From Gemmatimonadota bacterium (GTDB lineage Bacteria > Gemmatimonadota > Gemmatimonadetes > Gemmatimonadales > GWC2-71-9): DNA of 64,000 bases. The position numbers and the translations under genes were made by a program. This document shows, piece by piece, positions 27,528 to 36,291 of this stretch (positions within the stretch are counted from its first letter, which is position 1; each line of letters starts with the position of its first letter). The stretch spans positions 62,001 through 126,000 of the forward strand of contig JANYLJ010000011.1 of the NCBI GenBank assembly GCA_025357945.1. Direction: 5' to 3'. Under the pieces are notes generated by a model that was not told the origin of the DNA, made no database searches, and was given only the letters and a program-made list of their open reading frames with translations.

Positions 27528-28364
27528 TCAGCGGTCGGGGGAGGGAGGACTCGTTGCAGAAGTGGGTCGATGGGTGAGCCACACGCTGAACGATACGGTA
27601 CGCTCGCGCGCCGTGTTCTTGCCAGACAAGCCGGCATAGTACCCGCCGACTATCGCCATGCGCTCGCTCAGGTGATAGATCAGCGAACCGCCAACCTTCG
27701 TCGCGCTGTAGGCGATGCCGGACTGGCCGGCGCCCGCCAACGCAGCGACGTTGAATGTCTGTACCATGGCGGTAACTCGATGCCCGGCGTCCAGTCCGAT
27801 CGTGGCGTCGTAGCGAATCTCGTCGTTGCCATGGCGCCAGGCGGAACCGCCCGCCGAGATGGAGATCCATCCGCGCCGCGATCCGATGCCATAGCCAGTG
27901 CCGTAGAGCAGCCGGAGTTCGGCCTCGGCCTTCACCGGGCCGAGCACCGGCCGGGCATCGGCGTCATAGAGCAAGGGCAGGTCAACACGAGGTTGAATCG
28001 ACAACACGCCGAGCTTACCCTGGGTGATCCGCGTCATCACGAAGAAGCCGGTGGCACCGAACCCGGTGGTCGATGCCGTCGTACCGTTGTGGTTGTCCTC
28101 GAGGTGCGCGAACCCCTGGCCGATGCCGACGCTCACCCCTTCACGTAATCCATAGATGAAGTAGAGCCCCCAGTCCACCTTGTCGAGGCCGTTGGCGGTC
28201 GCGCCGGCGCCCGGATCGAAGCGGTCGGGGATCGTCCCCTGGTTGAGTCCTTGCGACAGGAACCAACCGTGGGGCTGCACGGTCCACTGCGCGGAAAGGT
28301 GCCACGGAAACGCAAGAGTCAGGAGCACCCCGGTCGCGGTGCCCAGGCCGACAGGAGACCTCAC
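27528..28364 (-). CDS. Outer-membrane beta-barrel-like protein of the exopolysaccharide operon
   Basis: 278 residues from the GTG at 28364, which overlaps the upstream gene's stop as GTGA. Signal peptide VRSPVGLGTATGVLLTLAFP ending at LSAQ. The rest alternates polar and hydrophobic residues with many Gly and aromatic positions (for example VDWGLYFIYGLREGVSVGIG and VGGSLIYHLSERMAIVGGYY), as in outer-membrane barrels such as the phenol-degradation-type transporter family. It lacks a C-terminal Phe but ends the barrel with TVSFSVWLTHRP. By position, it could be the outer-membrane export or anchoring partner of the exopolysaccharide system; this is inference. Last gene of the operon. Confidence 0.65.
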   Translation of the reverse strand: MRSPVGLGTATGVLLTLAFPWHLSAQWTVQPHGWFLSQGLNQGTIPDRFDPGAGATANGLDKVDWGLYFIYGLREGVSVGIGQGFAHLEDNHNGTTASTTGFGATGFFVMTRITQGKLGVLSIQPRVDLPLLYDADARPVLGPVKAEAELRLLYGTGYGIGSRRGWISISAGGSAWRHGNDEIRYDATIGLDAGHRVTAMVQTFNVAALAGAGQSGIAYSATKVGGSLIYHLSERMAIVGGYYAGLSGKNTARERTVSFSVWLTHRPTSATSPPSPDR

Positions 28365-29743
28365 GGCACCACCGCATCGGCCGCGAGCACCGCGTCGTAG
28401 CGCACTGGCAATTGTGCGGCCGCCGGACGGCGATACAGCGTGTAGCCTGCCCAACTCCAATTTACCACAAACCCGATCGGTGGGTGGACATCGGCGTCGA
28501 GCGTGAGGCCATCACCGTCGGCAGTGATGAGGACGTAATCCACCTTGGCGGCCGCGTCAGCCAGTGCCAGTTCGAACCCGGGGTCGCGCGTGGTCAGGTA
28601 TGGCGCCAGCGATGGCGCCCATTTGAGCAGTTGTGGCGCAAACCGGTCGTCGATCAGGATGCTCCGGTCTGGCGCCTTGGCCAAGGCGTCGGCCACCGCG
28701 TGGGCCGCCAGATCTGCCTCACTCACCCGTGGCCAGGGGACCAACCACCACGCCGCGATCGCCTGGGCGACCGCGGCCGCACACACGAGGGCGCGCCGCG
28801 ACGACTTGAGGTCCGTCGGCAGGGCGACAATGGCGACAAGCGTCAGCAGGCCGGTCGCGAACGCCAGCGAAAAATGCCAGCCGACCCGATTGGCGAGCAC
28901 CAGCAATGCAAACGGCAGCAGCACGCCAGCGGTGGTCGCCCGCGGTCGTAGCAGCGCGAACAGCGACACCACCAGGTAGGGTACGGTCCAGACGAGGATG
29001 GTGGCAAACCCTGGTGACGCCGGTTCCCACGGCGTGAACGGAAACGCGACGCGATGGATGAAGATCCACGACAAGTACGCCCACGTCGCGGTCGCCGCGA
29101 CGCCGGGAAAGACGAGCAGGACCAGCTGGGACGCGAACGGCGGAATCTGCAACCGCGGGAAGATGATCGGCAGCACGGCGCCGGCGACGAGGGCGAGGGC
29201 GAGGCCGAGCGGCGAGGTGTAGAACGCGAGGCCGAGCCACAACCCGGTGTAGAGGCCGTGGATCGTCTGGCGTGTGGCCCACCAACGTCGGTAATGGCGC
29301 CATCCGACGTAGAGCGCGAACAGTCCGATCGCCTCGTTGAAATCCCCGGCCACCAGGTGGACACCGATCGGCGTCCACAAAACCGAGAGCAGCAGCACGA
29401 ATGGCACGATCGAGCGCTGCCACGTGCAGTCGGCGAGTACCATCCACGCCAGCCCGAACAGCGCGGCGCCAGCCAGGATGATGATCCAGAGATCCGCCGG
29501 CCAGGGCAGCAGCAGCAGGAACGGCAGCGGTGGGTACTCGAAGCCCAACAGCTGCAATTGGCCGCGATTCTCCGCGAAGCGGACCCGGCTCAGGAACGCG
29601 CCGTGGATGTCGCTGCGCCAGCCGCCGTGCATGAGCAGCACGCTCGCGACAATCAGCGGTACCACCACCGCGAGTGCGAGAAGTGCCCGCACCCAGCGGG
29701 GGGCGGCCGGTTCAGCCGGCGGCGCCATGGCGGGTGAGGCCAT
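28361..29743 (-). CDS. Polytopic membrane protein, GT-C glycosyltransferase-like
   Basis: 460 residues with about ten hydrophobic segments. The first loop holds GAFLSRVRFAENRGQLQLLGFEYPPLP, reminiscent of GT-C (GT39/GT87-type) transferases whose first periplasmic loop carries an acidic residue, though no clear catalytic motif can be fixed. The last 100 residues form a soluble part with LIDDRFAPQLLKWAPSLAPYL, probably periplasmic. Its start lies inside the 3' end of the GT2 gene (32-nt overlap) and its stop overlaps the outer-membrane gene as GTGA. Probably adds or modifies sugars in the exopolysaccharide pathway. Confidence 0.6.
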   Translation of the reverse strand: MASPAMAPPAEPAAPRWVRALLALAVVVPLIVASVLLMHGGWRSDIHGAFLSRVRFAENRGQLQLLGFEYPPLPFLLLLPWPADLWIIILAGAALFGLAWMVLADCTWQRSIVPFVLLLSVLWTPIGVHLVAGDFNEAIGLFALYVGWRHYRRWWATRQTIHGLYTGLWLGLAFYTSPLGLALALVAGAVLPIIFPRLQIPPFASQLVLLVFPGVAATATWAYLSWIFIHRVAFPFTPWEPASPGFATILVWTVPYLVVSLFALLRPRATTAGVLLPFALLVLANRVGWHFSLAFATGLLTLVAIVALPTDLKSSRRALVCAAAVAQAIAAWWLVPWPRVSEADLAAHAVADALAKAPDRSILIDDRFAPQLLKWAPSLAPYLTTRDPGFELALADAAAKVDYVLITADGDGLTLDADVHPPIGFVVNWSWAGYTLYRRPAAAQLPVRYDAVLAADAVVP

Positions 29744-31553
29744 GGGTCGTTTTCTCCCAGTAGTACGGCTTGGTGAACAGTTGTCCCAGCGCCTTGAACG
29801 ATGCGATCGAGTGGAGCACCCAGTAGAACGGGTTGAACAGCGAGAAAAGCACCAGCACGTGGAGCTTTCGCTTGAACACGGCGAACATGTTGACGTAGAT
29901 CGCCAGCGCGTTGCCGATCAGCAGGTTGAAGAGCGACAGATACAGCACGGCCGGTGGGAACAGCGACTCGAGCAACGAACTGCGGGTGAACAGCCAAACG
30001 ATCGTCAGGACGACCGAGATCGGCTGGATCAGGAAGATGAGCGGCGTGCCGCCGATCAGCAGCGCGAATCCGAGCGTGTGCTTCCATCCCGCGCGACGCA
30101 CCAGACCGTACGGGTCGCGCGAAAAAACCAGCGCGGTCTGCATGTAGCCCTTGATCCACCGGGAGCGCTGGCGCAGCCAGTTGCCGAGCTGCTTGTTCGC
30201 TTCCTCATACGTGGTCGAGTTGACGATGCCGACGCGGTACCCGTGCATCGCGGCGCGAATGCCCAAGTCGGCGTCCTCGGTGACATTGAACGGATCCCAG
30301 CCGCCGAGTTCGCGAAGGACTTGCGTGCGGAAGTGGTTGCTGGTGCCGCCCAGCGGAATTGGCAGCCCGAGCCGGTCGAGGCCCGGCAGCAGATAGTCGA
30401 ACCAGAACGAGTACTCGAGCGTGAACATCCGGGTCAGGAAGTTTTCGTTCCAGTTGTAGTAGTTCAGCGCGGCCTGGACGCAGACGAGCGCCTTCGGCCC
30501 GCGCCGGAAGGCAAGCAGGGCCTTCTTGAGCTGGTCCGGTTCCGGCTGGTCTTCGGCGTCGTACACCACCAGATACTCGCCTCGTGCGAAGAGCAGCCCG
30601 ACGTTGCACGCCTTGGGCTTCGTCTGCGGGTCGCCACCCGGCACGACCAGGAACCGTACGTTCGCCCCCGGTGTCGCCGCCTTGGCCGCAGCCAGCGTGT
30701 CGGGATCATTCTCCTCGAACAGCAGCACGATGTCGAGCTTGTCGGCCGGATAATCCAGCTCGGCAAGCGAGCGCAGCAGCGTACCGATCACGCGCTCTTC
30801 CATGAAGACCGGCACCAGGATGCTGTAGACCGGGAGCGACCGGTTGTCGAGCGCCCGGACGTCCTCGTCGCTGATGCTGATCGCCGTCTCGGCGGCCGCA
30901 CCGGCGACGCCCACCCAGGTGCGGAAAATCACGGTGATCAGGAAGAACGCCGTGATCGGAATGTTGAGGAACAACAGTGTCCGCGCGGGCGCGAGCCACA
31001 GGCCGCCGAGCAACACCAGGCACAGCAACACAAACGTCAGGTATTGCGGCAGCGTGAACACGGTGAACGCGCTCTCGGACTGGTCGCGGAAGTAGAGGCC
31101 GTAGATCGAGGTATCGACCACCTTGCGCCGATGAATCGAGGCGATCGCGCGATCGATGTCCCATTCGGTCGTGACGCGAAAATCGATCGCCTTGCCGGGA
31201 TAGATGATTTCGAGGATGCTGCGCAGCTCGGGTGCCGGACTGTCGGCGACCGCCACGGTTACCGATCGGGCATCCTCCCGGAGCGGGACGGCGCGATGTT
31301 GCAGCGTCGCCTCGAGCGGCATGCGCTGGGCCACCCGCGGGTCCACGGTCCCCTGCTCCACCGTGACGAACGGCAGCTGCCACAGGTCGGCGAGGGCGCG
31401 GGCGAGGTCGAGGCGCCGGACGTAGCCGAGAATCAACAGCAGGCGGCCGAGACGCTCACCCGTCCGCTGCTGGTGTTGTAGCGCGGTATTGAGCTGGACT
31501 TCGCTGATCAATCCCCGGTGGACGAGGTACTCACCCAGTCGTATCGAGCTCAC
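29712..31553 (-). CDS. MshEN-GT2 exopolysaccharide synthase (cellulose synthase-like)
   Basis: 613 residues from GTG. The N-terminal 150 residues are an MshEN/GspE-N-type domain with two 24-residue motifs at residues 5-28 and 34-57, separated by 5 residues; the first matches the known c-di-GMP-binding pattern (RLG, G, L, Q) fully, the second ends in Leu instead of Gln. Then come two membrane helices and a processive GT2 domain with PVFMEERVI, VVYDAED, VTEDADLGIR and QRSRWIKG, then about four helices to YYWEKTTHGLT. There is no PilZ domain. E. coli NfrB joins the same two domains in the opposite order and is c-di-GMP controlled. It overlaps the BcsB-like gene by 23 nt. Confidence 0.85.
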   Translation of the reverse strand: MSSIRLGEYLVHRGLISEVQLNTALQHQQRTGERLGRLLLILGYVRRLDLARALADLWQLPFVTVEQGTVDPRVAQRMPLEATLQHRAVPLREDARSVTVAVADSPAPELRSILEIIYPGKAIDFRVTTEWDIDRAIASIHRRKVVDTSIYGLYFRDQSESAFTVFTLPQYLTFVLLCLVLLGGLWLAPARTLLFLNIPITAFFLITVIFRTWVGVAGAAAETAISISDEDVRALDNRSLPVYSILVPVFMEERVIGTLLRSLAELDYPADKLDIVLLFEENDPDTLAAAKAATPGANVRFLVVPGGDPQTKPKACNVGLLFARGEYLVVYDAEDQPEPDQLKKALLAFRRGPKALVCVQAALNYYNWNENFLTRMFTLEYSFWFDYLLPGLDRLGLPIPLGGTSNHFRTQVLRELGGWDPFNVTEDADLGIRAAMHGYRVGIVNSTTYEEANKQLGNWLRQRSRWIKGYMQTALVFSRDPYGLVRRAGWKHTLGFALLIGGTPLIFLIQPISVVLTIVWLFTRSSLLESLFPPAVLYLSLFNLLIGNALAIYVNMFAVFKRKLHVLVLFSLFNPFYWVLHSIASFKALGQLFTKPYYWEKTTHGLTRHGAAG

Positions 31554-33603
31554 GACGCACGACGCGAGGATAGAGCCAGATCGAGAGAATCAGCAGGATC
31601 ACGAGCGCCGCGATGAAGATCGGGTTCTTGTACCGGGTGAAGAGGTTTTGCGGGGCATCGGGCTCCGCCTCGAGTCGCCAGCCAGCGTTCGCGACGGTGA
31701 GCGAGCGCACCGGGCCCTGCATTCCGCGGATCGCCAGGTCGCCGCGCACCCCGAACCAACCGTATGGCGCCAGCGTTTCGCGCAGGAGGTCGGCCAGCGG
31801 CTGGCCGCTCGCGCCGGTGTGATGGAGGAGCAGGACGTCGTCGCCGTTGCGCACCCAGCCCTGCATCGCGCCATACGGCGCGTCGGGCGCAAACTCGTCC
31901 CAGACCTTGCCGTTGAGGTCGCGCAACCGGACGCCATCCGAGCGGAGCGGTGCACTGAGCGCTTCGGCGAGCGCGCTGGTGCCGATGGCGAGCAACGGTC
32001 CCGTCGCCGCAGCGAGGTCGCGCGCCAGCGCTGGCGCCAGCGGTGTTCGCGTCGTCTGCTGCATCGCACCGACCACGCTCGCTGCCAGCTCAACCCGGAA
32101 TCGGTCGAGTGGATCGAGCAGCACCGAAAACGACGGCACGAACGCCTGCGGGAAGCGCCCGAAGCCCGGGGCCATCGCCGTGGTGCCGTTGGTCACGAAC
32201 GCCGACGCGTTGTCGATGGTCGCGGTGAACACGGGGCCGCCCACGACGCAACCACCTTCGCCAAGGGTCACCTGGAAGCGCACGTCGAAGACGTTGTCGC
32301 GCCGCAGCAAGTGCGCCGGGATCGGGATCACGGCGTCGAACCCGTCATGGTCGAGGGTGCGCGAATAGATCAGGTCGCCGTTCAGATGCAGGCGGAGCGA
32401 ACCGCCGCCGTTGACCGGCAGGATCGAGTGGCGGACGATCAGCCGCAGTGACGTTAGCGTGATCGACGTGCCGAAATCGCCAAGCGAGATCGGGTACGAC
32501 GAGGCGACCAGCGAGTTTCCCTCGACGGTGCGGCTGTCGAAGCCAAGATCGGCCAAGGTACGCAGCGTGGCGTTTGCCACGACGTTGTGCCCGAGATCGA
32601 CGGTGGCGGTGCGAAACCCCGTCGCGGCGACGAGATCGGCGCCGCCCGCCAGCGTAAAGAGCTGGCGCGCGTCACGTCGTGCGGCGATCGCGAGAATCGT
32701 CCCGCGTCCGTTGTCGACGTGCTCCACTCTGGTGCTGCCCGTGGGGGTCCACACGACGGCGCGAGACCACGGTCCCGGCTCCGGCAGCGGCGTACCGACC
32801 GGCGGCAACGGCTTGACCTCGAACACGGTGGCCATGCCGCGGTACCGCCGCGCGACGTAGGCCGCGGCATCGAGTGCGGCCTGCGCCGCGTCGGCCGACG
32901 GTTGCTCCGCCATATAGAACGTCACGCGTTCCAGCCACGGCTGGAAAAATCCGTTGACTGCCGCGGTCGGTCGTGGCATGTCCCGGTAGCTCACCTGACT
33001 CTCAGGCTTGACCACGGTGCGGTAGAACATCTCGGCCTGGCACCGGTCACGACCAGGCACCGAGAGGCCAACCTGGAACACGGCCTTGCCGTCTTGCACG
33101 ACGGCGTCGGCGAGCGAGAGCGTGATGCTCGTCATCGTGTCGGTGAGGTCGCGAAGGGCGAGCACGTGGTCGCCCTGGCGGAGAACCAGGGTGGCCGGCG
33201 GCATCCGCGGCGTGGGCATCAGGCGAAGTTTGAACTCCGCCGGACGCAAACCGTCATTCACCGGGATGGCGATCGTGGCTTCCGCTGCGGTGCCGACCAG
33301 GACGATGCCGCTGCGGTAGCCGATCGCACTGAACGTCAGGTTCAGCGGGGCGAGTGCGGCGCTATCGCTGGCGCGTCCTCCCGGAACGATCCGCGGCATC
33401 TGTTCGCCGTGCGTGGTGTCGCTGCGGGTGCCGCCACCGTTCGTGGCCGCGCCGGCCATCGCGATGGAATCGGCGGCGGCCGGCAGCGGCGCGCGAGCGC
33501 CGATCGGCTGTGTCTGCTGGCGATTGCACCCGGTCACGGCGAGCACGAGTGCCACGAGGATCGCCGTGTGCGGGCGTCGCGCAATCTGTCGCAGCATCGT
33601 CAC
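31531..33603 (-). CDS. BcsB-like periplasmic subunit of a polysaccharide synthase
   Basis: 690 residues resembling the cellulose synthase regulatory subunit BcsB: two rounds of carbohydrate-binding-like and flavodoxin-like domains (LRLMPTPRMPPATLVL; GFFQPWLERVTFYMAEQPSADAAQAAL; LRLHLNGDLIYSRTL; LLHHTGASGQPLADLL), ending in one membrane helix (IFIAALVILLILSIWLYPRV). In Bcs this subunit lines the periplasmic exit of the glucan channel. Oddly, the N-terminus (ILVALVLAVTGCNRQQ) has a lipobox with Cys26, so it may be lipidated as well as membrane-spanning. It stands directly before the MshEN-GT2 synthase gene, as expected for its partner. Confidence 0.75.
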   Translation of the reverse strand: MTMLRQIARRPHTAILVALVLAVTGCNRQQTQPIGARAPLPAAADSIAMAGAATNGGGTRSDTTHGEQMPRIVPGGRASDSAALAPLNLTFSAIGYRSGIVLVGTAAEATIAIPVNDGLRPAEFKLRLMPTPRMPPATLVLRQGDHVLALRDLTDTMTSITLSLADAVVQDGKAVFQVGLSVPGRDRCQAEMFYRTVVKPESQVSYRDMPRPTAAVNGFFQPWLERVTFYMAEQPSADAAQAALDAAAYVARRYRGMATVFEVKPLPPVGTPLPEPGPWSRAVVWTPTGSTRVEHVDNGRGTILAIAARRDARQLFTLAGGADLVAATGFRTATVDLGHNVVANATLRTLADLGFDSRTVEGNSLVASSYPISLGDFGTSITLTSLRLIVRHSILPVNGGGSLRLHLNGDLIYSRTLDHDGFDAVIPIPAHLLRRDNVFDVRFQVTLGEGGCVVGGPVFTATIDNASAFVTNGTTAMAPGFGRFPQAFVPSFSVLLDPLDRFRVELAASVVGAMQQTTRTPLAPALARDLAAATGPLLAIGTSALAEALSAPLRSDGVRLRDLNGKVWDEFAPDAPYGAMQGWVRNGDDVLLLHHTGASGQPLADLLRETLAPYGWFGVRGDLAIRGMQGPVRSLTVANAGWRLEAEPDAPQNLFTRYKNPIFIAALVILLILSIWLYPRVVRRELDTTG

Positions 33604-33625: not shown

Positions 33626-35260
33626 TCATCTGCGCCGCCAGATCGTCAGGCCGCCCTCGTCGAAGGCGCGGTCAAAACGATTCTTGAATTCGTCACGTCC
33701 CGCAATCGCTCGGGCCACCGCTCCCGCGTCGTGATGGTTGTCCACGACGACCCAGTCCACTGTGCCTTCGGGCGCGGCGAGCGCGGCGGCACCCAATTGC
33801 CAGGTCCAGTGGTAGACCCGATCCCGCAGCGCGATCCTGGTCCGCGGACTGATGTTGATCGCTTCGTCCACCAGGACGCGTCCGCCGTCGTAGTGGGTCG
33901 CAAGCCAATCGGAGGCGTCTTGCTGCCGCCGGTCGCCATCGCGGATCGCCAGTCCTTCACGCAGGGCGCCAGCCTGCGCCGGCCAGCGGACGGTAAAGAG
34001 CGCCGCTTGCCCCAGTACGGCCGTTAGCCCAGCGAGGAGCATGCCCCGTCGCCACCGCGGGTGCGATGTCACCATCCGCAGCCCGCCCATCACGGCCAGC
34101 ACGGCGAGTCCGGGGAGCATCATCACGCCGTAGCGGATGTTCAACACCCCGGCGGGGTGCGTCCAGGGGAGCTGGATCGTACTCTGCTGTGCCCAGAGTG
34201 CGAGGATGTTGAATGGCAACGCCGTGAGCAGCAGCAACACGGTGGCGCCGCCGTGCCGGACTTGCCGGAGGACGGCGGTCGATCCGAGCAACCCCAGCAC
34301 GGTGAGCAGTGCCCCGGCCGAGAGCGCCGTAGCGCCGAGGTAGTACCACACGGACAGCCCGAGGTGCCCCGCCGCAGGAACCTGGCTCTGCGCGGCGAGC
34401 GCCGCCTGCTGGCTTTGCGCTGACCAGACGCCGCGCTGGAACTCGAGCGGATCGCCAAAGTAGATCCAGTTGAAGCCGAGCCACGCGGCCACCATCAACG
34501 CACTCGGTGTCGCGAAGAGCGGTGCGTCACGCCACCACACCTTCGCGATGCCCGCCGCGTTACGGGCGTCGAAGTTCGCCTGCGGTGCGGCCGGTTGTTC
34601 GCCGCGCGTCGCTGTGAGTGCCACGCGATGGCCGCGATACGCCAGCCAGGCCACCAGCGGTGTGGCCACCATCACGTAGAACCAGCCGTCGTATCGCGAC
34701 CCCACGGCCAGCGCGGCGAAGCAGGCCGATGCCAGGAGCGCGCGCCGCGACCCGGTGTCATTCCAGCGGTCCAACCCATTGACCGATGCGACCAGGCAGG
34801 CCAGCAGGACCGGTTCGGTCATCGCGGTGGTTTGCAGGAAGAGCAGGCTCGGATTGAACAGCACGAACGCGGTGCCGATCCATGCGAAACGTGGTGCGCC
34901 GGTGCGGCGGACCAGCAGGTCGTGGCAAGAGGCGATCGTCGTGACGTACGCAATGAAGCCCACGATGCCACCGGCCACGCCATTCCACCACCAGTGATCG
35001 ACGAGCGCGAACGGAAGCATCAGCAGGTGCGGCACCGGCAGCCAGACGGTGCCGAGCATCTGGAGTCCTGGGGTCACCGAATCGAAAACGCGTCGAGCAA
35101 TGTCGAGGTGCGCCTGCGCGTCCCAGAACGCGAAAACCACGCCGGCCTCGTGCGCCCAGACCTGTGCCACGAGGCCGACCACGACGGCGACGAGGCCGGC
35201 CTGGAAGGCCGGCCTCAGGTGTAACAGCGGACGTTCGCGTCGTGGCGCTTTGCCGATCAC
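33626..35260 (-). CDS. GT39-like polytopic mannosyltransferase-type protein
   Basis: 544 residues with roughly 12 hydrophobic segments and a short soluble C-terminus. The first periplasmic loop has VFAFWDAQAHLDIARRVFDS, the Asp-containing pattern of GT-C enzymes that use polyprenyl-phosphate sugars, followed by GTVWLPVPHLLMLPFA. The family transfers sugars to acceptors on the periplasmic side. The ATG at 35260 overlaps the PEP-CTERM gene's stop as ATGA, and the BcsB-like gene follows after 22 nt, so it belongs to the exopolysaccharide operon. It could act on the secreted polymer or on the PEP-CTERM protein. Confidence 0.75.
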   Translation of the reverse strand: MIGKAPRRERPLLHLRPAFQAGLVAVVVGLVAQVWAHEAGVVFAFWDAQAHLDIARRVFDSVTPGLQMLGTVWLPVPHLLMLPFALVDHWWWNGVAGGIVGFIAYVTTIASCHDLLVRRTGAPRFAWIGTAFVLFNPSLLFLQTTAMTEPVLLACLVASVNGLDRWNDTGSRRALLASACFAALAVGSRYDGWFYVMVATPLVAWLAYRGHRVALTATRGEQPAAPQANFDARNAAGIAKVWWRDAPLFATPSALMVAAWLGFNWIYFGDPLEFQRGVWSAQSQQAALAAQSQVPAAGHLGLSVWYYLGATALSAGALLTVLGLLGSTAVLRQVRHGGATVLLLLTALPFNILALWAQQSTIQLPWTHPAGVLNIRYGVMMLPGLAVLAVMGGLRMVTSHPRWRRGMLLAGLTAVLGQAALFTVRWPAQAGALREGLAIRDGDRRQQDASDWLATHYDGGRVLVDEAINISPRTRIALRDRVYHWTWQLGAAALAAPEGTVDWVVVDNHHDAGAVARAIAGRDEFKNRFDRAFDEGGLTIWRRR

Positions 35261-36045
35261 GCGTCGGAAGTCTGGCGGCGCCCGCGGCGGCGCCGTGCCA
35301 GCGCACCGAGCCCGGCGAGGCCGCCGCCAAGCAGGGTGAGTGTGGCAGGTTCCGGCACGACTTCCGTCGGCAACCCGATCGAACCGTGATCAACTGCAAA
35401 AATCGCGTTGTCGAAATCCCAGTCACTCCACCGGTACGTCACGTCCTCAAAACCGAAGAGCCCCACGCCGGCGGTGCCGGGAACCGTGCCGACACCGCGG
35501 TTGCCGCTAACGCCGTTCGGAAAGTACGCCAGATGCGCGTACCCGTCGGAGCCGTCCTGGTTCAGGTTTCGGGCCGGGTCGCCGGAGAAGAACCAGTTGT
35601 ACTCACCGTTGTTCTGGTTGACCATCAATGCGAAAATGACTTCGGACCCCGGGATCCAGCTGAACACCCTGGTGAACGGCGATCCGTAGCAGGCGTTGGC
35701 CGGCACCGGACAGGTCACGCCGTAGGGCTTGCCGAACAATGGGATGCCGAGGAGTCCGGCGAGATCCTGATTCGAGACGCCGTCGCAGTTCGTGCGATAG
35801 GTGGCGGAAAACTGGAAACAGCCAGCGGCGAGGTCGGCGGCGTACTGGCCTCCAGTCAGGGCGAAAATCTCATTGCCATACACGGTGGTCGCTTCCCAGC
35901 CGTAGTAGGTCGCCGTGATCGAGCTGCCAGTTGCGATCAGCGGCGACACCACGCCGTAGTCCGGCAGGTAGGTTTGCTGCCCGCGAGCACCCGTTGTGAC
36001 GACGGCGGCGAGCAGGGCGACGATGCCAACGATGCGGGACAGCAC
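35257..36045 (-). CDS. PEP-CTERM sorted secreted protein
   Basis: 262 residues from the GTG at 36045, chosen because GAGGAG stands 9 nt before it and VLSRIVGIVALLAAVVTTGARG is a signal peptide; an in-frame ATG at 36069 is the alternative. The body is a Gly/Asn/aromatic-rich domain with four Cys and the acidic segment YRWSDWDFDNAIF. The C-terminus VPEPATLTLLGGGLAGLGAL followed by Arg-rich residues is a textbook PEP-CTERM signal, read by an exosortase, of which none is encoded here. PEP-CTERM proteins are known to go with exopolysaccharide loci, which fits its place as first gene of this operon. Confidence 0.85.
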   Translation of the reverse strand: MLSRIVGIVALLAAVVTTGARGQQTYLPDYGVVSPLIATGSSITATYYGWEATTVYGNEIFALTGGQYAADLAAGCFQFSATYRTNCDGVSNQDLAGLLGIPLFGKPYGVTCPVPANACYGSPFTRVFSWIPGSEVIFALMVNQNNGEYNWFFSGDPARNLNQDGSDGYAHLAYFPNGVSGNRGVGTVPGTAGVGLFGFEDVTYRWSDWDFDNAIFAVDHGSIGLPTEVVPEPATLTLLGGGLAGLGALARRRRGRRQTSDA

Positions 36046-36291
36046 GGCGATCAACTCCTCGGGTTCCAATGGTCCAACCGACTTACCTGCCGACTAGCGC
36101 AAACCGGGTGCCGCGCCAACGCTGCGCAGCCAACTCCTTCTGGTATAACGGTTTCCGTCTGGGCTGTTGCCGACCAGCGACACCGGCCAAGTGTCGCGGT
36201 GCGGCGCCATCTCAGCAAGATAACGACACTTTTGTCGGGTTTACGCAACAGTGTGGCGTCAGCTTCGGCTTGGACCGGGCGAGCGGTCGGG
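36046..36291 (-). promoter_or_regulatory. Regulatory region of the exopolysaccharide operon
   Basis: No gene is seen. The region contains a 7-bp inverted repeat GCGACAC (36177-36183)/GTGTCGC (36191-36197) and a second CGACA/TGTCG hairpin at 36224-36237, so CGACAC or its complement occurs three times in about 50 bp. The minus strand has a TATACC element near 36141-36146 that could be a -10 box, without a good -35. The repeats may bind a regulator of the operon or, in part, end thrC transcription from elsewhere; the first reading is preferred because they lie upstream of the operon. Confidence 0.4.

Follow-up and report, generated by a model that had tools for sequence, protein, structure and literature searches.

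The synthase gene and its neighborhood

The window (the whole stretch of 64,000 nucleotides of a Gemmatimonadota genome analyzed here) encodes, on the minus strand, a 613-amino-acid MshEN-GT2 synthase (29712–31553, GTG start) that was delineated from its open reading frame, domain profiles and an AlphaFold2 model; all features given below lie on the same strand. The protein starts with a complete MshEN domain (MshEN_N plus MshEN_C, residues 1–140; 31134–31553) supported by profiles, alignments and the model, followed by two membrane helices predicted from the AlphaFold2 secondary structure (residues 168–187 and 189–221, spanning 168–221; 30891–31052), a processive-type GT2 catalytic domain located by profiles, alignment and fold search (residues 243–470; 30144–30827), and further membrane helices identified in the model and the family alignment (residues 490–594; 29772–30086), after which comes a conserved WEKTxHG tail. 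The catalytic signatures DAED (332–335), TED (425–427) and QxxRW (462–466) are invariant or nearly so across 50 aligned family members. The AlphaFold2 model, built with 50 family members, has a mean pLDDT of 88.4 and a pTM of 0.88, and the best matches of the glycosyltransferase fold are hyaluronan synthases and BcsA. The score against TIGR03030, the equivalog of the UDP-forming cellulose synthase, is 51 bits with a cut-off of 699, and the protein is therefore BcsAB-like rather than a BcsA; against the NfrB equivalog NF008411, it scores 48.5 bits with a cut-off of 1170. In agreement with the original prediction, profile searches detected no PilZ domain in the synthase or in any of the 50 family members checked, and no T2SSE ATPase domain (PF00437) in the synthase or 50 relatives.

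The gene immediately upstream, which shares 23 bases with the synthase gene and had not been mentioned in the original prediction, encodes a 690-amino-acid periplasmic partner of the BcsB family (31531–33603). The window protein scores 15.9 bits against Pfam BcsB, below the cut-off of 21, so that its identity rests on the fold and the family profile: its AlphaFold model (pLDDT 79.8) finds E. coli BcsB as the best solved fold in Foldseek (E 2e-30, TM ~0.6), a search with the profile of the partner family hits BcsB structures (E 2e-21), and all 37 aligned partner homologs match PF03170 with E ≤ 0.01. When the genome was searched with Pfam BcsB, no further BcsB turned up, and even the one in the window escaped detection, which means that fold or profile evidence is needed for this partner family.

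Downstream, a gene overlapping that of the synthase by 32 bases encodes a 460-amino-acid polytopic membrane protein (28361–29743), next to which lies a gene for a secreted beta-rich protein (27528–28460; the open reading frame has 310 codons' worth of residues, i.e. 310 amino acids, with the true start probably further in). Neither protein has a match in Pfam or NCBIfam; the family assignment of the first comes from the annotation of its Geobacillus plasmid relative as glycosyltransferase family 39 (GT39) and a weak PMT_2 match. Homologs of the second adjoin the synthase in other phyla, and in several Gram-negative phyla, many of them end in an aromatic residue (F/Y), which suggests, from sequence features, a possible outer-membrane barrel and a candidate exporter. 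This secreted family travels with MshEN-GT2 synthases in Gram-negative phyla. On the other side, beyond the BcsB gene, lie the genes for a GT-C/PMT-like membrane protein of 544 amino acids (33626–35260), conserved only in the Gemmatimonadota copies, and for a 270-amino-acid PEP-CTERM surface protein (35257–36069), probably the first gene of the same run and likewise found only among the Gemmatimonadota copies. Located at the head of the operon, this surface protein is possibly linked to the polymer. A scan for promoters and terminators returned chance-level matches only.

The MshEN motif and domain

The MshEN motif had been predicted at 31383–31541, and these coordinates correspond exactly to residues 5–57 of the synthase. 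The published motif (PMC5013675), which exists in a strict and a relaxed form, has 11 fixed positions per copy, or 22 in both. Copy 1 (residues 5–28, RLGEYLVHRGLISEVQLNTALQHQ; 31470–31541) fits the strict consensus at 11 of the 11 positions, precisely as predicted, and copy 2 (residues 34–57, RLGRLLLILGYVRRLDLARALADL; 31383–31454), after a spacer of 5 residues, does so at 9 of 11. The substitution of Leu57 for the terminal Gln in copy 2 had been recognized but was taken to be the sole departure, whereas Tyr44 departs as well, in a position where the strict pattern has L, V or I and where V. cholerae MshE has Phe in the alignment. Taken together, the two copies fit the strict pattern at 20 of the 22 key positions and the relaxed one at 21, Leu57 falling outside even the latter. 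The profile check envisaged in the original prediction gave scores well above the thresholds, namely 60.6 bits against NCBIfam NF053729, the MshE-related c-di-GMP motif (cut-off 38), and 49.1 bits against Pfam MshEN, which covers the MshEN_C part, residues 58–140 (cut-off 23.1). The six reading frames of the window contain the strict pattern a single time, and none of 100 shuffles contains it; given these scores and counts, the motif is not a chance occurrence.

A sequence search with residues 1–140 retrieved, as the nearest solved structures, the N-terminal domains of PilF, MshE and PilB, several of which are labeled as c-di-GMP-binding. V. cholerae MshE aligns without gaps, its numbering being shifted by 4, and the MshE residues R9, L10, G11, L29, R38, G40, L54 and L58 are all kept, as R5, L6, G7, L25, R34, G36, L50 and L54, respectively. 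The residues lost in XpsE, an MshEN protein that does not bind c-di-GMP (PMC5013675), are kept or conservatively replaced in the window protein wherever they can be mapped via this alignment, with the exception of MshE Gln61, which is replaced by Leu57. One of the two terminal Gln residues is missing in NfrB, too, where the first motif ends in Arg, and NfrB binds c-di-GMP (PMC8669469). In the AlphaFold2 model, where the pLDDT of this block is 78–95 across residues 1–140, helices 6–12, 18–31, 35–41 and 47–57 form the four-helix bundle of MshEN_N and are followed by the three strands and flanking helices of MshEN_C, the pattern described in PMC12943098. The structure prediction, proposed originally as a way to refute the assignment, thus recovered the MshEN fold at the level of secondary structure.

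Phyletic spread and state of the motif

A scan of 84,980 species genomes yielded at least 576 confirmed relatives, the best 80 of which are essentially full-length matches with 44–90% identity. These 80 come from 15 phyla (Gemmatimonadota, Thermus, Chloroflexota, Thermomicrobiota, Aquificota, Actinomycetota, Cyanobacteriota, Nitrospinota, Thermodesulfobacteriota, Myxococcota, Synergistota, Bacillota, Chlamydiota, Pseudomonadota and Bacteroidota), several being metagenome bins in which single contigs may be misplaced. Of the 80 best loci, 57 have a BcsB-like gene in the vicinity of the synthase, mostly immediately preceding it or separated from it by a single gene, and several of the BcsB-less loci stop at a contig edge; at the sensitivity used, no BcsB-like gene was found in the Actinomycetota and Thermomicrobium loci. 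Within a sample of 249 Gemmatimonadota genomes, the MshEN-GT2 gene is present in at least 3, all from one genus, a lower bound given that the first pass evaluates a small number of candidates in each genome. A conjugative plasmid of Geobacillus stearothermophilus, pEF60063-1, carries the complete gene set nucleotidyltransferase–BcsB–MshEN-GT2–GT39 (L090, 2591–9328), and the synthase encoded there keeps both terminal Gln residues. Because the gene is rare in the Gemmatimonadota sample and a copy resides on a conjugative plasmid, the BcsB/MshEN-GT2 set has probably spread by transfer. In the tree, the Gemmatimonadota clade falls at an open fork together with Chloroflexota, Thermus, Thermomicrobiota and Actinomycetota, which points to no single donor. 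Genes for a transposase and a recombinase are located close to the synthase set of pEF60063-1, the host of which is Gram-positive.

An intact motif occurs only in genomes with GGDEF domains. With an intact motif defined, by a cut set in this analysis, as at least 18 of the 22 relaxed positions plus both RLG glycines (two cyanobacterial sequences sit at the border between intact and degenerate), all 52 intact-motif proteins, including that of the window, come from genomes with GGDEF, and all 16 GGDEF-less genomes scored in the main set have a degenerate motif, with RLG changed to SIP, SFI and similar. Seven further Bacteroidota genomes with the gene (42–87% identity) have no GGDEF and no recognizable motif, the N-terminus of the most distant one being unalignable. 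The GGDEF-less total amounts to 24 Bacteroidota, with the motif readable in 22, where the GT2 is kept and the motif eroded. Retention of the motif for the sake of c-di-GMP would be expected to leave such a pattern; the GGDEF-less genomes, however, form essentially one clade, so that the counts are not independent, reflecting one or two evolutionary events rather than two dozen, and a sign test on pairs has no power. Conversely, 12 degenerate copies occur in GGDEF-positive genomes (Microbacteriaceae and other Actinomycetota, cyanobacteria, Hydrogenothermaceae, one chlamydial bin and one Mucilaginibacter with a single weak GGDEF match), which implies that the synthase can exist without the switch. 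Among these GGDEF-positive loci with a degenerate motif are L040, L053 (cyanobacteria), L054, L060, L065, L075 (Microbacteriaceae), L071 and L081 (Hydrogenothermaceae), and at least some of the losses appear to be independent. In Mucilaginibacter and Pedobacter (loci within L057–L083) and in L091–L098, the BcsB and GT2 pair is kept and the MshEN ligand residues are lost; these genomes are devoid of GGDEF domains, apart from one with a single weak match. The Bacteroidota loci often have a histidine kinase gene directly upstream, perhaps as a replacement control.

The genome from which the window comes encodes six GGDEF domains and, by a profile search, no PilZ proteins, which leaves MshEN as the only common class of c-di-GMP receptor found there; its two other MshEN proteins (G000:C45:13236-13499 and G000:C36:42292-42501) are pilus/secretion ATPases of the T2SSE type. 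The possibility that the MshEN domain of the synthase no longer binds c-di-GMP and has only a structural or assembly role, as in XpsE and seemingly in the Bacteroidota members, would account for the persistence of the domain region and the operon in members with an eroded motif and for the missing terminal Gln in copy 2, but we consider it unlikely, given the fit of 20 (strict) or 21 (relaxed) of the 22 key positions, the retention of the motif over long divergence by members in the same half of the tree, and the GGDEF enzymes in the genome itself.

Proposed gating of the synthase and its implications

Cellulose synthase, with a C-terminal PilZ domain on BcsA, is the textbook example of a polymer-forming enzyme under the control of c-di-GMP. 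The synthase in the window is likely to be an exopolysaccharide synthase of the BcsA/BcsB type in which an N-terminal MshEN domain, the predicted allosteric c-di-GMP switch, takes the place of the C-terminal PilZ. The computed parts of this reading are a homology to MshEN in which almost every binding residue is retained, a complete processive GT2 set with membrane helices on both sides, and a BcsB-fold partner encoded by an overlapping gene, the pair being conserved across phyla. Under the proposed mechanism, diguanylate cyclases would raise c-di-GMP, one molecule of which would bind across the two 24-residue motifs and change how MshEN packs against the cytosolic GT2 domain, switching elongation on; the chain would then cross the membrane through the channel of the GT2 part and enter the BcsB-like periplasmic subunit, with the downstream membrane and barrel-like proteins possibly finishing and exporting it. 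The product need not be cellulose.

A functional precedent is E. coli NfrB, which makes a c-di-GMP-dependent exopolysaccharide (PMC8669469) and for which c-di-GMP binding has been demonstrated and both domains are needed (PMC8669469, PMC8669472). Like the window protein, NfrB combines GT2 and MshEN (29% identity over 103 amino acids for MshEN and a distant 23% for GT2), but profiles and alignment place its MshEN at the C-terminus, as had been noted originally (PMC8669469), its partner is the TPR-barrel protein NfrA, and there is no BcsB. NfrB works with a dedicated cyclase, DgcJ (PMC8669469), and MshEN domains are mostly found on assembly ATPases (PMC5013675), so one could imagine that MshEN binds c-di-GMP and controls oligomerization or docking, e.g. 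to a diguanylate cyclase or the BcsB crown, instead of catalysis directly. This appears quite improbable, considering that NfrB function requires both the c-di-GMP-binding and the catalytic residues (PMC8669469), that a receptor fused to a synthase is most simply read as gating it, and that no recognized cyclase is among the genes common to the neighborhoods, most neighbors being unannotated.

With BcsA-BcsB, the GT2 fold, the catalytic motifs and a BcsB partner of the same fold are shared, whereas the window protein has an N-terminal MshEN for PilZ, fewer N-terminal membrane helices and ~18% identity to BcsA. The annotation of one xagB-like gene as a beta-monoglucosyldiacylglycerol synthase (PMC4643136), along with a CelA profile score far under the equivalog cut-off (51 vs 699 bits), could hint at a single-sugar transferase with, e.g. 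a glycolipid product; such an activity is very improbable for a protein that has the complete DxD/TED/QxxRW processive set, invariant or nearly so in the family, a BcsB partner with the cellulose-synthase fold and polymer synthases as the best glycosyltransferase fold matches. The receptor domain is shared with the N-terminal domains of MshE, PilB and PilF, ungapped over ~100 residues, but in those proteins it is fused to the T2SSE ATPase, which the synthase lacks. Another c-di-GMP-activated GT2 without PilZ is the mixed-linkage glucan synthase BgsA of Sinorhizobium, which uses a binding domain of its own and not a predictable known receptor domain (PMC5567048).

The domain order itself has precedents. 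MshEN domains fused to glycosyltransferases were noted in general terms in 2016 (PMC5013675), and in the stalk-forming Zetaproteobacteria, Sfz2 combines an N-terminal EpsE-like domain (IPR007831) with GT2 beside the BcsB-like Sfz1 and has been read as a possible translocation module (PMC8250860); the description of this twisted-stalk cluster (sfz/sfb) was preceded by that of bcsB-xagBCD in Ferriphaselus (Kato 2015; PMC4643136). In Xanthomonas, the raised biofilm of an rpfG mutant is due in part to XagB (PMC3609779). The window locus, compared by description only, agrees with the Sfz2/XagB-like arrangement of an N-terminal T2SSE_N plus GT2 next to a BcsB-like gene, as well as with the order of Sfz1/Sfz2, i.e. 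a BcsB-like gene, a T2SSE_N-first GT2 protein and then a protein of ~500 amino acids (PMC8250860, PMC4643136); the phyla are different, and Sfz2 was published as an EpsE-like module with generic RxxD/RxxxR motifs, unlike the reading given here. A role of the N-terminal region as a secretion ATPase module of the EpsE kind that powers export, as suggested for Sfz2 and as the InterPro name T2SSE_N/EpsE-like would have it (PMC8250860), has a negligible probability and was rejected, because PF00437 is present in the two genuine ATPases of the genome but absent from the synthase and 50 relatives.

The original suggestion of a separate class of putatively c-di-GMP-gated synthases is supported by the conservation of the full-length family, the BcsB partner and the erosion of the motif in GGDEF-less Bacteroidota, with the qualification that the MshEN-first order had already been reported with Sfz2. 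What is apparently new, at the level of sequence analysis, is the MshEN-gated reading of a BcsAB-like class, the MshEN-first GT2 beside a BcsB-like gene being known already; in the open-access literature (subscription papers being outside the scope), no description of such a gated class was found. On balance, we favor the view that MshEN-first GT2 plus BcsB represents another widespread type of cellulose-synthase-like machine gated by c-di-GMP, a second one in which MshEN replaces PilZ, and which moves between phyla and persists as a synthase with a decayed switch in Bacteroidota lacking c-di-GMP synthesis.

If this is true, the allosteric c-di-GMP input is interchangeable, the same catalytic and BcsB parts being combined with another receptor, often of higher affinity, which sits at the other end of the protein. 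Bacteria that have cyclases but no PilZ protein, such as the one from which the window comes, would thereby possess a c-di-GMP output, and the twisted-stalk genes of iron-oxidizing bacteria would acquire a concrete hypothesis, namely c-di-GMP gating through MshEN. The members with a decayed switch would be ready-made unswitched relatives for a direct comparison of gating.
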